From positions 186,001 through 250,000 of the forward strand of contig NCKB01000005.1 in assembly GCA_002279065.1 (NCBI GenBank): DNA of 64,000 nt. Direction: 5' to 3'. Under the pieces are notes generated by a model that was not told the origin of the DNA, ran no database searches, and saw only the letters and a list, made by a program, of their open reading frames with translations. Origin of the DNA: Lysobacterales bacterium 15-68-25 (GTDB lineage: Bacteria > Pseudomonadota > Gammaproteobacteria > Xanthomonadales > Rhodanobacteraceae). Both the position numbers and the translations under genes were made by a program. Shown here piece after piece: positions 12,754 to 16,500 of the stretch (its first letter is position 1; each line of letters begins with the position of its first letter).

Positions 12754-13394
12754 AACCGCTGGCGATCCTCGGAGGCACCTTCGATCCGGTGCACATCGGC
12801 CACCTGTGCGTGGCCTGGGAGGCGTCCGAACTTCTGGACGCCGAGGTGCGACTGATGCCGGCCAGCGTGCCGCCGCACCGCACCCCACCGGTGGCCTCGG
12901 CCGAGCAGCGCGTCGCCCTGCTGCGCGCCGCGCTGGCCGGTCAGGACCGCCTGCAACTGGACCTGCGGGAACTGGAGCGCGACGGCCCCTCGTACAGCGT
13001 GGACACGCTGGAGGCGCTGCGCGCGGAGCAGGGCGACCGTCCGCTGGTACTGCTGATGGGGGCCGATGCATTCACCGGCCTGCCGACCTGGCATCGCTGG
13101 GAACGGCTGTTCGAGCTGGCGCACCTGGGGGTGTTCGCACGGCCCGGTTTCGAGGCCGACTGGCCGGCCGAGCTGGAAGCGGCCGCAAAGGGGCGGCTGG
13201 CAACGCCGGACGACGACTGGCGCAGGCAACCGGCTGGGCGAGTGCTGCACCTGGACGTGACGCCGCTGGACATCTCCGCCACGCGTATCCGCGGCCTGCT
13301 CGCGAGCGGTCGGGTGCCGCGCTACCTGCTGCCGGATGGTGTATTCGCCGACGCGTCGCTGCTCGACATGTACAGCAGGCCGCGCGCGCCCTGA
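12750..13394 (+). CDS. nadD: Nicotinate-nucleotide adenylyltransferase
   Basis: 214-aa cytosolic enzyme making deamido-NAD from nicotinate mononucleotide and ATP. It shows the nucleotidyltransferase motifs GGTFDPVHIGH (8-18) and SATRIR (about 177-182). In many proteobacteria rsfS and rlmH follow nadD directly. Here a four-gene stress module lies between them. Confidence 0.96.
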   Translation: MKPLAILGGTFDPVHIGHLCVAWEASELLDAEVRLMPASVPPHRTPPVASAEQRVALLRAALAGQDRLQLDLRELERDGPSYSVDTLEALRAEQGDRPLVLLMGADAFTGLPTWHRWERLFELAHLGVFARPGFEADWPAELEAAAKGRLATPDDDWRRQPAGRVLHLDVTPLDISATRIRGLLASGRVPRYLLPDGVFADASLLDMYSRPRAP

Positions 13395-13459
13395 CGGGGC
13401 CGCTTGCCTCCGGCCTGGCGTGCATGGGGATTCGGGGGCCGCTCACCGGCGTATGACGA

Positions 13460-14074
13460 TCAGGCCGTGCGGGGCACGAAACGCAGCGCCACCGAGTTCA
13501 TGCAGTAGCGCAGGCCGGTAGGTCGCGGGCCATCGTCGAACACATGGCCCAGGTGGCCGTCGCAGCCGGCGCAGCGCACCTCGGTGCGGATCATGCCGAA
13601 GCTGGCGTCACGCTTCTCGATCACGTTGGAAGCGGCGATCGGCTGCCAGAAGCTGGGCCAGCCGGTACCTGAATCGAACTCGGTAGCGGCATCGAACAGC
13701 GCGGTGGCGCAGCCGACGCAGCGGAACAGGCCGGGGCGGTCGGGCTTCTCGTGGTCGCCGCTGAAGGCGCGCTCGGTGCCGTCCTGGCGCAGCACGTAGT
13801 AGGCCATCGGCGACAGTCGCCGCCGCCACTCGGTGTCGCTGAGCTCTAGCCGGCGCACCGTGCAGGGGCCGAGCGGACGCCCGTCGTCGGCGAAGCACTG
13901 CAGGTGCACCTCGATCGGGCCGTCGGCGGTCCTGGCGGTGGCCGGGCCACGCTCGCCGGCGAACAGGCGCCGCACGCCCATCATCCCGGCCAGGGCGGCG
14001 AGGGCGCTGCCGCCCAAGGCGGCGCGCAGCAGGCGACGCCGCTCGGTCATCACGATTTCCTGGGTACGGGACAT
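13460..14074 (-). CDS. msrB: Tat-exported methionine-R-sulfoxide reductase MsrB
   Basis: 204 aa. It reduces methionine-R-sulfoxide in proteins. N-terminal ERRRLLRAAL followed by a hydrophobic stretch is a twin-arginine signal, so the enzyme should act in the periplasm, unlike the usual cytosolic MsrB. The catalytic domain (about 75-200) has zinc-binding CVGC and CAGC pairs, WPSFWQP, and RYCMNS with the catalytic Cys near the C terminus. The start is ATG 14074 with GGAGAA upstream; ATG 14050 is an alternative that keeps the Tat motif. A perfect SigF-type promoter precedes it, divergent from the sigma gene. No MsrA domain is fused. Confidence 0.92.
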   Translation of the reverse strand: MSRTQEIVMTERRRLLRAALGGSALAALAGMMGVRRLFAGERGPATARTADGPIEVHLQCFADDGRPLGPCTVRRLELSDTEWRRRLSPMAYYVLRQDGTERAFSGDHEKPDRPGLFRCVGCATALFDAATEFDSGTGWPSFWQPIAASNVIEKRDASFGMIRTEVRCAGCDGHLGHVFDDGPRPTGLRYCMNSVALRFVPRTA

Positions 14075-14109
14075 GGGGCTTCTCCGGCACCGGGCCGCGA
14101 CCACCTGCA

Positions 14110-14135
14110 TTCGTCCGGGCAGGTGGACAGGTTAC
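14110..14135 (-). promoter_or_regulatory. SigF-type promoter of msrB
   Basis: Read on the minus strand: GTAACC (14135-14130), 16 bases, CGAA (14113-14110). The expected transcript start is about 30 bases before the msrB ATG. Identical elements precede the sigma gene and the MxKDx gene. Confidence 0.8.
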
Positions 14136-14151
14136 GCCTCCGTCGTACGCA

Positions 14152-14177
14152 GTAACCGCGCGGCGGGATGCAGCGAA
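14152..14177 (+). promoter_or_regulatory. SigF-type promoter of the sigma factor operon
   Basis: GTAACC (14152-14157), 16 bases, CGAA (14174-14177). It lies upstream of the ECF sigma gene and back to back with the msrB promoter, so the sigma factor should drive its own synthesis. Confidence 0.8.
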
Positions 14178-14285
14178 CAACAGGGAGCCCACCCGCAGAG
14201 CGCCCGGATGTCCGCCGTCTTGACCCATGCCCCCGCGATAGGCGTAGATGGCGGCCTTGCCTTGTGCCAGGAGCCCGTCCGCGTC

Positions 14286-14867
14286 GTGGACGATTCATCG
14301 CTCAGCGACAACCAGCAGGCCGACCTGCGCCGCGCCGGGTGGATGGCGGCCGCGCAGGCGGGCGATCGCGCGGCCTACGAGCGCGTGCTGGGCGAATCGG
14401 TCGGTCTGGTCCGCGCGGTGGCCAGGCGGCAGGGCGTGCCGCAGGACCTCCTCGACGACGTGGTGCAGGAGACCCTGATCACGGTCCATCGGGTCCGGCA
14501 TACCTACGACCCGGCCCGTTCCTACCACGCCTGGCTGTCGGCCATCGCCGCCCGCCGGGCAATCGACAGTCTGCGTCAGCTCGGTCGTCGTGATCGGCGC
14601 GAACTGCACGAGCCGCTGGCCGTCGAGCAGCATGCCGACGAACGGCAGGCGAACGATGCCGCCGAACAGGACGAGCGTGCGGCCGCGCTGCGCGAGGCCA
14701 TCGCCTCGCTGCCCCCGGGCCAGCGCGAGGCGGTCGAACAGCTCGGTCTGCGCGAGCACACGCTGGCCGAGGCGTCCGCATTGACCGGGCGCTCCACCGG
14801 TGCGCTGAAAGTGAACCTGCACCGCGCCCTCAAGGCGCTACGCAACCGACTCCACGGAGAACACTGA
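14286..14867 (+). CDS. sigF: ECF RNA polymerase sigma factor, SigF-like
   Basis: About 193 aa from the GTG at 14286. Sigma-70 region 2 (DLLDDVVQETLITVHR, then YHAWLSAIAARRAIDSLR) and region 4 with helix-turn-helix (LPPGQREAVEQLGLREHTLAEAS...GALKVNLHRALKALR) are present; region 3 is absent, as in ECF factors. An in-frame ATG at 14208 would add 26 residues, but that stretch uses codons such as ATA and GTA that are rare in its neighbours, so the GTG (AGGAG 12 bases upstream) is preferred. The downstream gene is an NrsF-type anti-sigma factor, which places it in the SigF/NrsF group. It is preceded by its own GTAACC-N16-CGAA promoter. Confidence 0.88.
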   Translation: MDDSSLSDNQQADLRRAGWMAAAQAGDRAAYERVLGESVGLVRAVARRQGVPQDLLDDVVQETLITVHRVRHTYDPARSYHAWLSAIAARRAIDSLRQLGRRDRRELHEPLAVEQHADERQANDAAEQDERAAALREAIASLPPGQREAVEQLGLREHTLAEASALTGRSTGALKVNLHRALKALRNRLHGEH

Positions 14868-14868
14868 C

Positions 14869-15543
14869 GTGGCCGACGCGCCCAACCACCAGTTGCTGAT
14901 CCATGCGCTGGGTGCCGACCTGGCGCCGGTCCGGCGCCTGCGTCCGCCGCTCTGGCGCACGTTCGGCTGGACGCTGCTGCTGGCGGCCATGGCCGCGCTG
15001 TTGGTCTGGCATTACGGGCTCACGCCGATGTTGACCCGCTGGCGCGGCGCGCCCGACCTGGCCTGGGCGGGCATCGGCGCCGTGCTCACCGCGCTGGTCG
15101 CCGGCTGGGTGGCGTTCTCGCTGGGTGTGCCGGGGCGTCCGGTGGCGCGCGCCTGGCTGGTACTGCCTCCGGCGCTGCTGTGGATCGGCGCCAGTGGTGT
15201 GGGTTGCCTGCGTAGCTGGGTGGCACCGGACACCGTGGTGGCCGCCACGATGGCCGAGGCGCGCGGCTGCCTGGAGTTCATCCTCGCCTTCTCGTTGCCG
15301 CTGTCGGCGCTGCTGGTGTGGTTGCTGCGTCGAGCGTATCCGCTGCGTCCGGTGCTGACGGCGGCGATGATCGGCGTGGCCAGCGCGGCCGGTTCGGCCA
15401 GCTTGCTGGAGATCTGTCACGAGTTCGATGCGGCGGCGACCGATCTGGCAGTGCACGCCCTGGCCGTGGGGCTGGTGATCGGCGTGAATGCGCTGTGCGG
15501 CGGGCGGCTGTTGCGTCCGCGTCGCCCGATCGCCGCGAGGTAA
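14869..15543 (+). CDS. nrsF: NrsF-like anti-sigma factor (DUF1109)
   Basis: 224-aa inner-membrane protein with six hydrophobic helices (first at about 29-48, last near 195-212) and a short cytosolic N terminus, the DUF1109/NrsF layout. NrsF proteins hold their ECF sigma factor at the membrane and release it on oxidative or heavy-metal stress. Several Cys residues lie within or near the membrane (for example in GVGCLRSW, ARGCLEF and LLEICHEF) and could sense oxidants; this is inference. The GTG start is 1 base after the sigma stop, with GGAG upstream. The stop codon lies inside the -35 element of the next gene's promoter. Confidence 0.88.
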   Translation: MADAPNHQLLIHALGADLAPVRRLRPPLWRTFGWTLLLAAMAALLVWHYGLTPMLTRWRGAPDLAWAGIGAVLTALVAGWVAFSLGVPGRPVARAWLVLPPALLWIGASGVGCLRSWVAPDTVVAATMAEARGCLEFILAFSLPLSALLVWLLRRAYPLRPVLTAAMIGVASAAGSASLLEICHEFDAAATDLAVHALAVGLVIGVNALCGGRLLRPRRPIAAR

Positions 15544-15565
15544 CCGTCGACGCGCTTCTGGCGAA
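15540..15565 (+). promoter_or_regulatory. SigF-type promoter of the MxKDx repeat gene
   Basis: GTAACC (15540-15545), 16 bases, CGAA (15562-15565). The TAA inside GTAACC is the nrsF stop codon. The transcript start would be about 45 bases before the ATG at 15617. Confidence 0.8.
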
Positions 15566-15616
15566 AAGGCAGGCGTGTGGCATCGGCCACACGTCCATTT
15601 TCCAGGAGAACGTCGC

Positions 15617-15967
15617 ATGAAAATTCTCGCCAAGCTCGCCCTCGGTCTCGCTTTCGCCGGCCTCGCCGCAGGTTTTGCCGGCACGGCACTCGCGCAGGAC
15701 AGCATGGGGCAGGACAGCGGCATGAAGCACGACGCCATGAAGGGTGACTCGATGAAGCGCGACTCGATGAAGCACGACTCGATGAAGCACGACTCGATGA
15801 AGCACGACTCGATGAAGCACGACGCCATGAAGGGCGATTCGATGAAGCACGACTCGATGAAGCACGACGCCATGAAGGGTGACTCGATGAAGCACGACTC
15901 GATGAAGCACGATGCCAAGAAGGGCGATTCGATGAAGCACGACGACGCCATGAGCGGCGGCATGTGA
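15617..15967 (+). CDS. Secreted pentapeptide MxKDx repeat protein, methionine-rich
   Basis: 116 aa. A clear signal peptide (1-26, ending GTALA) is followed by 15 tandem five-residue units (36-110) of the form MK[HGR]D[SA], then a short Met-containing tail. The mature chain is almost only Met, Lys, His, Asp, Ser, Ala and Gly, with Met every fifth residue. It matches the MxKDx pentapeptide family, whose biochemical role is not established. Strong RBS (AGGAGAA) and its own SigF-type promoter. The pairing with a Tat-exported MsrB and SigF/NrsF suggests a sacrificial methionine pool for hypochlorite or a similar oxidant, as described for MrpX in Azospira. Metal binding by Met/His/Asp is an alternative. 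Confidence 0.9.
   Translation: MKILAKLALGLAFAGLAAGFAGTALAQDSMGQDSGMKHDAMKGDSMKRDSMKHDSMKHDSMKHDSMKHDAMKGDSMKHDSMKHDAMKGDSMKHDSMKHDAKKGDSMKHDDAMSGGM
15722..15946 (+). repeat. 15-bp coding tandem repeat, 15 units
   Basis: Fifteen near-identical 15-base units of the form ATGAAGCACGACTCG encode the pentapeptides. A higher-order 45-base period (MKHDA-MKGDS-MK[HR]DS) recurs four times, once with an AAG in place of ATG. Copy number could change by slippage or recombination without breaking the frame. Confidence 0.9.
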
Positions 15968-16058
15968 CGCGTCCGGCCCCGGGCGGGTGCTACTGGGCCG
16001 CGCCGCACCGGGGCCGACGATTCCGGTCCGGGGACCGATCCCTGCCGGAGCGGAGCGC

Positions 16059-16064
16059 TATAAT
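16059..16064 (+). promoter_or_regulatory. -10 element upstream of rsfS
   Basis: Perfect TATAAT. It overlaps an in-frame ATG (16063) that therefore cannot be the rsfS start. It supplies rsfS-rlmH with a housekeeping promoter of their own. No clear -35 hexamer is seen. Confidence 0.65.
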
Positions 16065-16110
16065 GGCGGCGCGCGATCCCGCGCTGCTCTCCGTACCGAG
16101 GCCCCTCCTC

Positions 16111-16500
16111 TTGGCTAATTCCGCCCGCACCGACAAGCCGGTTCCCACCTCCAGGCTGCGCCAGCAGGTGCTCCACGCGCTGGAGGACCTGAAGGCCAAG
16201 GACATCCGCGAGATCGACGTCCGCGGTCGTACCTCGATCGCCGACCTGCTGGTGATCGCCTCGGGTACCTCGACCCGCCACGTGAAGTCCATCGCCGACG
16301 AGGTGGTGAAGTTCGCCAAGAAAGCCGGCGTGATGCCGCTGGGCGTGGAAGGCGAGCAGGAAGCCGAGTGGGTGCTGGTCGACCTCGGTGACGTGATCGT
16401 CCACGTGATGCTGCCGCGCATCCGCGAGTTCTATGGCCTGGAGCGGCTGTGGACGGTGGGTGACCGCGAGCCGGACGCCGGCGCCGCCAGCGTCGGCTGA
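16111..16500 (+). CDS. rsfS: Ribosome silencing factor RsfS
   Basis: About 129 aa. It binds ribosomal protein uL14 and blocks subunit joining when nutrients are scarce. Conserved DIREIDVRG, SIADLLVIASGTSTRHVKSIAD and GVEGEQEAEWVLVDLGDVIVH segments are present. Start chosen is TTG 16111 (GAGG 9 bases upstream), because the upstream ATG at 16063 falls inside the -10 box. Followed by rlmH 12 bases later; both act on the large ribosomal subunit. Confidence 0.92.
   Translation: MANSARTDKPVPTSRLRQQVLHALEDLKAKDIREIDVRGRTSIADLLVIASGTSTRHVKSIADEVVKFAKKAGVMPLGVEGEQEAEWVLVDLGDVIVHVMLPRIREFYGLERLWTVGDREPDAGAASVG

Follow-up and report, generated by a model that had tools for sequence, protein, structure and literature searches.

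The stretch described here covers positions 13460-15967 of the window, that is, of the whole 64,000-nucleotide piece of Lysobacterales bacterium 15-68-25 (Rhodanobacteraceae) that was analysed, and it carries a predicted extracytoplasmic function (ECF) sigma factor gene, sigF, a gene for its putative membrane anti-sigma factor, nrsF, a divergent gene for an exported methionine sulfoxide reductase (Msr), msrB, and a gene for a Met-rich repeat protein, with three copies of the promoter-like motif GTAACC-N16-CGAA between them:

13460..14050, minus strand: msrB, predicted exported methionine-R-sulfoxide reductase (SelR 2e-47; TIGR00357 over cut-off)
14110..14135, minus strand: predicted sigma-F promoter of msrB, exact match to GTAACC-N16-CGAA
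14152..14177, plus strand: predicted sigma-F promoter of sigF-nrsF (autoregulation), exact match
14208..14867, plus strand: sigF, ECF sigma factor (Sigma70_r2 and Sigma70_r4_2)
14869..15543, plus strand: nrsF, predicted six-helix membrane anti-sigma factor (PF06532, 69.6 bits against a cut-off of 26.8)
15540..15565, plus strand: predicted sigma-F promoter of the MxKDx gene, exact match, overlapping the nrsF stop codon
15617..15967, plus strand: Met-rich MxKDx repeat protein, signal peptide and about 90 residues (TIGR02953, 92 bits against a cut-off of 41)

All three motifs were found where the original prediction had put them (minus strand 14135-14110, plus strand 14152-14177 and 15540-15565), and its readings of the genes were likewise upheld, namely an ECF sigma factor with an NrsF-family anti-sigma factor (PF06532 over cut-off), an exported Met-rich repeat protein (TIGR02953 over cut-off) and an MsrB with a twin-arginine translocation (Tat)-like signal, the signal being judged by eye. 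The motif is also the published form of the Caulobacter sigma-F promoter, as GTAACC-N16-CGAA is printed in the accessible text of PMC3511200. SigF scores over the cut-offs of PF04542 and PF08281, its sigma2 and sigma4 regions, and the GTAACC of the third motif overlaps the stop codon of nrsF, the TAA at 15541-15543. The mature MxKDx protein of about 90 residues, whose signal peptide was recognised by eye, contains 17 Met, 16 Lys, 18 Asp and 10 His. No sigma-70-like promoter was detected by a simple scan of 13380-16150.

MsrB reaches 176.7 bits against TIGR00357, for which the cut-off is 113, and its sequence contains RYCMNS and two CxxC motifs, which we take to be the catalytic cysteine and the CxxC pairs of such enzymes. 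The longest msrB open reading frame (ORF) begins at 14110, with an ATG that overlaps the -10 element and is excluded as the start of msrB if the transcript starts some 7 bases past CGAA; compatible with the promoter are the starts at 14050 and 14074, one of which is most likely the true one. The start at 14050 gives MTERRRLLRAALGG, in which a Tat-like signal is seen by eye, with DRRRFLR in two relatives that were read.

The structural model of NrsF (mean predicted local distance difference test score, pLDDT, of 82) displays six long helices of transmembrane length, with no PDB match at E 0.001 or better, and an NrsF profile matched none of the PDB sequences at E 0.01. If the N-terminus lies inside, C113, C134 and C183 would stand at periplasmic helix ends of this model. 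C134 is invariant in all 21 sequences of an alignment made without the Caulobacter, Brucella and Bradyrhizobium proteins, and it is taken as the first conserved cysteine of OsrA and NrsF; C113 is present as an extra cysteine in 17 of 17 NrsF proteins of the Rhodanobacteraceae type and C183 in 14 of the 17, one column off the second conserved cysteine, as seen in the other type. The conserved NrsF-family cysteines in known members are C129/C131 and C179/C181. By analogy with Bradyrhizobium and Caulobacter, as described in the accessible parts of PMC3420878 and PMC3511200, we infer that the three cysteines may sense stress.

Placement of the promoter motif in the genome

The genome (3.89 Mb, 22 contigs) contains exactly six copies of GTAACC-N16-CGAA, and the regulon is thus not self-contained at the locus, as had been proposed, since three further exact sites lie elsewhere, before msrA, before an operon for a cytochrome b561/YedY-like pair and before an operon for molybdenum cofactor (Moco) synthesis:

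Contig C4, 105 bases upstream: exact site before the MsrA gene (PMSR 2e-56)
Contig C17, 181 bases upstream: exact site before the cytochrome b561/YedY-like operon (PF01292)
Contig C11, 131 bases upstream: exact site before the moeA operon (Pfam)

In 100 shuffles of the window the mean was 0.01 sites, and three sites were obtained in none of them. Across the genome, GTAACC-Nk-CGAA with k from 6 to 36 (31 spacings) occurs 70 times; the 30 spacings other than N16 account for 64 of these, or about 2.1 each, so that six sites at N16 give P of about 0.02 from the count alone. Because the count is only mildly unusual, the case is not rested on it, and placement is the stronger evidence. Each of the six sites is followed, after 30-181 bases, by a plausible start codon belonging to a fitting gene, and the triplet GC periodicity around them is low and non-coding-like (0.03-0.15), against 0.02-0.58 at the 35 of the 64 other-spacing sites that were examined, three of which are at 0.15 or below (Mann-Whitney P 0.0003); the other-spacing sites are mostly in coding-like sequence. 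Periodicity was adopted afterwards as intergenic score in place of a simple gene caller, which was uninformative: misled by the long spurious ORFs of GC-rich DNA, it put all six N16 sites and 28 of the 35 others inside ORFs. Two further sites in the genome have GTAAC followed by a base other than C, and neither dsbD nor cutA was found near these two.

The MsrA carries a lipoprotein-type signal, judged by eye. On contig C17 the cytochrome b561 gene (PF01292, prokaryotic cytochrome b561, 74.8 bits) is followed by an overlapping gene, whose product of 251 residues is a YedY/sulfite oxidase-like molybdoenzyme in which Tat and lipobox features were recognised by eye. MsrP is the best NCBIfam model for this protein, at 105.5 bits and below the cut-off of 207, and sulfite dehydrogenase models match too; the best PDB sequence match is 1xdq, a bacterial sulfite oxidase, which we take to be E. 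coli YedY/MsrP. MsrQ belongs to a family other than cytochrome b561, and the domain matches of the partner include no ferric-reductase-type family as would mark an MsrQ/YedZ-type partner. Judged by these matches, the YedY-like enzyme is not a canonical MsrP and its partner is not of the MsrQ type. The proposal of a variant system with a different reductase was thus right in that MsrB, and MsrA as well, are present, and wrong in that the YedY-like molybdoenzyme joins the predicted regulon rather than being replaced. The Moco operon has the order moeA, moaA, moaC, mobA-like, moaD-like, moaE, in which moeA, moaA, moaC and moaE are Pfam matches, and mobA and moaD are frames read by eye.

Two side observations concern these units. 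The leader of the cytochrome b561/YedY-like operon contains an ORF of 23 codons that overlaps the operon start codon (ATGA; L014 1640-1711). A second protein with a molybdopterin oxidoreductase domain (L017, G000 C11:113621-114061) is near none of the six sites, and the part of it that was scanned is far below the MsrP cut-off.

Conservation among relatives

Differential conservation was observed for the sites in 28 genomes picked from 147 of the family, in 57 of which NrsF was detected at E 0.001. The 28 comprise 18 NrsF-positive genomes (the window's genome, three congeners and otherwise one per genus) and 10 NrsF-negative ones; G008, with a weak NrsF below cut-off, and G013, with two NrsF, stand outside them. 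The exact site of the exported msrA is present in 16 of the 18 NrsF-positive and in 0 of the 10 NrsF-negative genomes (Fisher 5e-6), which by genus is 13/15 against 0/10 with genus g24 counted on both sides, and the looser GTAAC-N17-CGAA is present in 17 of the 18. The spacer letters of the msrA site vary from genus to genus, and no site accompanies the additional MsrA copies found in G007 and G009. The exact site before the cytochrome b561 gene was observed in 5 of the 7 genomes having the gene (G026 and the genus's four species, with G012 and G055 lacking it), and that before moeA in each of these four species; a 50-residue cytochrome b561 match in G017 (E 2e-4, L145) and a weak MoeA match (L175) were dropped from these comparisons.

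Near-full-length MsrB matches were found in 18/18 NrsF-positive genomes, whereas the 10 NrsF-negative genomes gave only partial ones. GTAAC-N17-CGAA stands directly before msrB in five of the 18; among the congeners the msrB promoter is exact in G002 and G003 and has the variant GTAACT in G001. Twelve of the 18, all from other genera, have the divergent promoter (exact in nine, variant in three) before a CcdA-thioredoxin gene that is followed by msrB, an order for which the frames were read in three genomes and match coordinates were used in the rest; a contig end parts the two genes in G020, and the G011 version of the CcdA-thioredoxin gene combines DsbD_TM with Redoxin/AhpC-TSA. An exact site also precedes a cutA-dsbD unit in the congeners G001 and G002 (L325 and L349), and a site of G003 at C1:3670186 has the same letters as that of G002. 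CcdA-thioredoxin and DsbD could plausibly pass electrons to thiol Msr enzymes. The conservation of the sites supports their being real promoters. G013 (L195) has a pair of other-type NrsF genes separated by about 1.2 kb, and three exact sites of the sigma-F type occur in their neighbourhood.

At sigF itself, the best 80 of 158 matches in named genomes were scanned, of which 71 are titled Dyella, Rhodanobacter, Frateuria or Fulvimonas and nine bear other names, mostly of metagenome-assembled genomes; some are of the same species as among the 18 NrsF-positive genomes, and one (L229) is cut before sigF, leaving 79. GTAAC-N17-CGAA occurs upstream of sigF in 79 of these 79 relatives, in 50 of them as the exact GTAACC-N16-CGAA, against at most one sequence window for every other spacing from N10 to N23. 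A divergent site near sigF is present in 71 of the 79 (exact in 62), and in four of the eight relatives without it an exact site on the minus strand occurs some 1 kb farther out. By its sequence the promoter is thus of the ECF16 type, (T/C)GTAAC-N17-CGAA, with predicted autoregulation, and the base preceding GTAAC, for which the ECF16 definition has T/C, is mostly G here (50 of 96 sites).

The MxKDx gene has GTAAC-N17-CGAA upstream in 10 of the 13 genomes with a TIGR02953 match (E 0.001) and in 8 of the 8 over cut-off, as the three without it (G007, G012 and G017) score below the cut-off; in G020 the gene lies away from the sigF locus and has kept its exact site. Within the same best 80 of 158 matches, a site follows nrsF in 20 of 77 relatives (exact in 18), and the slot behind it is occupied by Met-rich MxKDx-like proteins in 18 cases (by eye), by a DUF2282 protein in one (L294) and by a catalase-family protein in one (L305), the last with an N-terminal membrane or signal segment, also by eye. 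In G026, which is outside the 80 (L194 3461-5466), a DUF2282 bufferin precursor occupies the slot, and MNIO and DUF2063 genes come after it. In the window, the MxKDx mRNA would carry a stem-loop in its leader (15574-15593), terminator-like on the minus strand (1 found, 0.7 expected). The whole locus is flanked by a cytidylyltransferase-family gene (nadD-like, by eye) on one side and by rsfS on the other, and rsfS-like frames are downstream in two relatives that were read (L180, L191) too.

The proposed regulon, its alternatives and known systems

From these sequence comparisons, sigF-nrsF is quite probably the hub of a small regulon that repairs oxidised methionine outside the cytoplasm. NrsF, as a six-helix membrane protein, would keep sigma-F inactive until hypochlorite, peroxide or a thiol-reactive metal acted on its periplasm-facing cysteines and freed the sigma factor, as proposed by analogy with ECF16 systems. 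Sigma-F with RNA polymerase would then read GTAAC(C)-N16-CGAA, a conserved element whose binding is presumed, and raise its own operon together with exported MsrB and MsrA. MsrB and MsrA handle the two stereoisomers of methionine sulfoxide. The cytochrome b561/YedY-like pair may use quinol electrons to reduce methionine sulfoxide, the Moco operon would supply the cofactor to the YedY-like enzyme, and the Met-rich peptide would absorb oxidation otherwise suffered by envelope proteins and then be re-reduced, with the likely electron donors of the relatives (CcdA-thioredoxin; cutA-dsbD) preceded by the same promoter type. For the genus, a wider proposal seems evenly balanced, in which sigma-F/NrsF directly commands Moco synthesis and a new, cytochrome b561-fed YedY-like reductase, so that oxidation of the envelope would call up a full Mo-dependent repair branch beside the thiol one (MsrA, MsrB, CcdA-thioredoxin or DsbD), and in which the slot after nrsF is a plug-in site with a lineage-dependent occupant (a Met-rich sink, a copper-binding bufferin or a catalase-like protein). 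If true, one promoter type would unite a coherent envelope methionine-sulfoxide repair regulon of both stereospecific Msr enzymes, a molybdoenzyme, its Moco supply and a Met-rich sink, and a regulatory route would lead from envelope oxidation to Moco synthesis, with the cytochrome b561/YedY-like pair as a candidate methionine-sulfoxide reductase. As the motif keeps a single spacing and lies outside coding sequence, members of the regulon would be recognisable by sequence throughout the family.

Several observations weigh against this reading of a methionine-repair regulon. The exact msrA site is missing in G012, whose NrsF is of another type, and in G021; the cytochrome b561/yedY pair of the NrsF-positive G012 has no site, and G055 has the pair without NrsF; the moeA site was found in 0 of 25 other MoeA loci, including the orthologues of G015 and G023 and the genus's own paralogues. 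The site after nrsF is absent in 57 of the 77 relatives, which makes the MxKDx slot a minority feature. Before cutA-dsbD, the window's genome has no listed exact site, and the unit was not found in the small part of that genome examined; the congeners carry further sites of the motif form, so that some chance sites per genome are likely. NrsF scores 22 bits against the narrower NCBIfam NrsF equivalog NF042994, where the cut-off is 300, and is 22-24% identical to three aligned NrsF proteins of the type that matches PF06532 best. The AlphaFold model of the YedY-like protein is poor (mean pLDDT 46.6) and was not used. As regards the inducer, published ECF16 systems make induction by oxidant or metal likely, and against this stand the reported lack of response of Caulobacter sigma-F genes to generators of reactive oxygen species (PMC3511200) and the results for the ECF16 pair of S. 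meliloti, for which the accessible text of PMC6180224 describes no response to H2O2, Cd or chromate.

Among the alternatives, a sizeable minority possibility is that the same stress calls on the cytochrome b561/YedY-like pair and the Moco operon for a different oxidoreductase reaction in the envelope, with sulfite or an N- or S-oxide as conceivable substrates, rather than for methionine-sulfoxide repair. The sub-cut-off MsrP score, the matches to sulfite dehydrogenase models and the cytochrome b561 partner are in line with it; MsrP as best NCBIfam model, 1xdq as best PDB sequence match and a promoter type common to two Msr genes argue for methionine sulfoxide. Rather unlikely, though still to be reckoned with, is a response mainly to metal stress, in which the buffering of Cu(I) or similar ions outside the cytoplasm by the Met/His-rich MxKDx protein is the main task and the Msr enzymes play a subordinate part, in the manner of the SigF-controlled DUF2282 (bufferin) operons of Caulobacter. 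In its favour, G026 and L294 have a DUF2282 bufferin precursor in the slot where MxKDx would stand, the congeners' site precedes a unit starting with cutA, a family named for divalent-ion tolerance, and 10 His and 17 Met are packed into about 90 residues; according to the accessible text of PMC3511200, Caulobacter sigma-F answers Cr and Cd and not generators of reactive oxygen species. Four of the six predicted units, however, encode Msr enzymes, the MsrP-like enzyme or its cofactor, no recognised metal pump is among them, and the slot of L305 holds a catalase-family protein.

The other two alternatives concern the promoters themselves. That another ECF sigma factor of like specificity, or several, reads the sites, so that sigF-nrsF is not the sole driver, is improbable: in Caulobacter, a second regulator contributes to the expression of sigF (PMC3511200, in its accessible text), but in the comparison of 28 genomes the msrA site goes together with NrsF, and 79/79 relatives (the best 80 of 158 minus L229) have the motif beside sigF. 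Very improbable is regulation of the local msrB, sigF-nrsF and MxKDx genes alone, with the three distant sites due to chance, since, although about two sites per spacing are expected in the genome, the msrA site recurs in 16/18 NrsF-positive against 0/10 NrsF-negative genomes with spacer letters differing between genera, and the four species compared within the genus all share the moeA and cytochrome b561 sites, with spacers partly different.

Much of this is already known for ECF16 systems of Caulobacter, Azospira, Brucella and Bradyrhizobium; new are the Moco operon under the promoter, in the genus only, and the cytochrome b561/YedY-like pair. Among the papers listed by the searches of open-licence literature, no ECF16/NrsF control of Moco synthesis was reported, nor was the regulon for Rhodanobacteraceae or a cytochrome b561/YedY-like pair in such a regulon. 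The known systems are compared here as the accessible parts of the cited papers describe them, and in one of these papers sigma/NrsF genes are placed next to bufferin clusters (PMC12452194). The Brucella system BcrS/AbcS-bcrXQP (ECF16, PMC8315932) shares the ECF sigma factor, an NrsF-type anti-sigma factor, an MXKDX peptide and an envelope Msr, as well as GTAAC(C)...CGAA promoters of the system itself and of the adjacent operon, inducible there by hypochlorous acid; it differs in having MsrQP in one operon with the peptide, whereas MsrB, MsrA and the cytochrome b561/YedY-like pair are separate here and a Moco operon is added. Azospira SigF/NrsF-MrpX-YedYZ likewise joins a Met-rich sink with an envelope Msr (Melnyk 2015, as cited in PMC4623255 and PMC8315932), and in two perchlorate islands msrA and msrB are predicted to be exported (PMC4623255), but the reductase there is YedYZ, the island moaA is discussed for perchlorate reductase, and no sigma-F promoter is reported in those parts. 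Caulobacter sigma-F/NrsF (PMC3511200) has the identical motif, a small regulon with a YedY homologue and NrsF cysteines that matter; it differs in its two DUF2282/DUF692/DUF2063 operons, its reportedly unchanged msrA homologues and its answer to Cr and Cd, with no MxKDx mentioned in that text. The regulon of Bradyrhizobium EcfF/OsrA (PMC3420878) includes three methionine sulfoxide reductases, with electrons proposed to pass through a DsbD-like protein and a membrane thioredoxin; in contrast to the present system, neither a Met-rich peptide nor a Moco operon is mentioned in the text available. In Neisseria, too, an ECF sigma/anti-sigma pair controls msrAB (cited in PMC3420878 and PMC3511200; PMC3240639, PMC2893595), and this system, for which the same sources mention no Met-rich peptide or Moco operon, is set apart from the present one by description and not by sequence.

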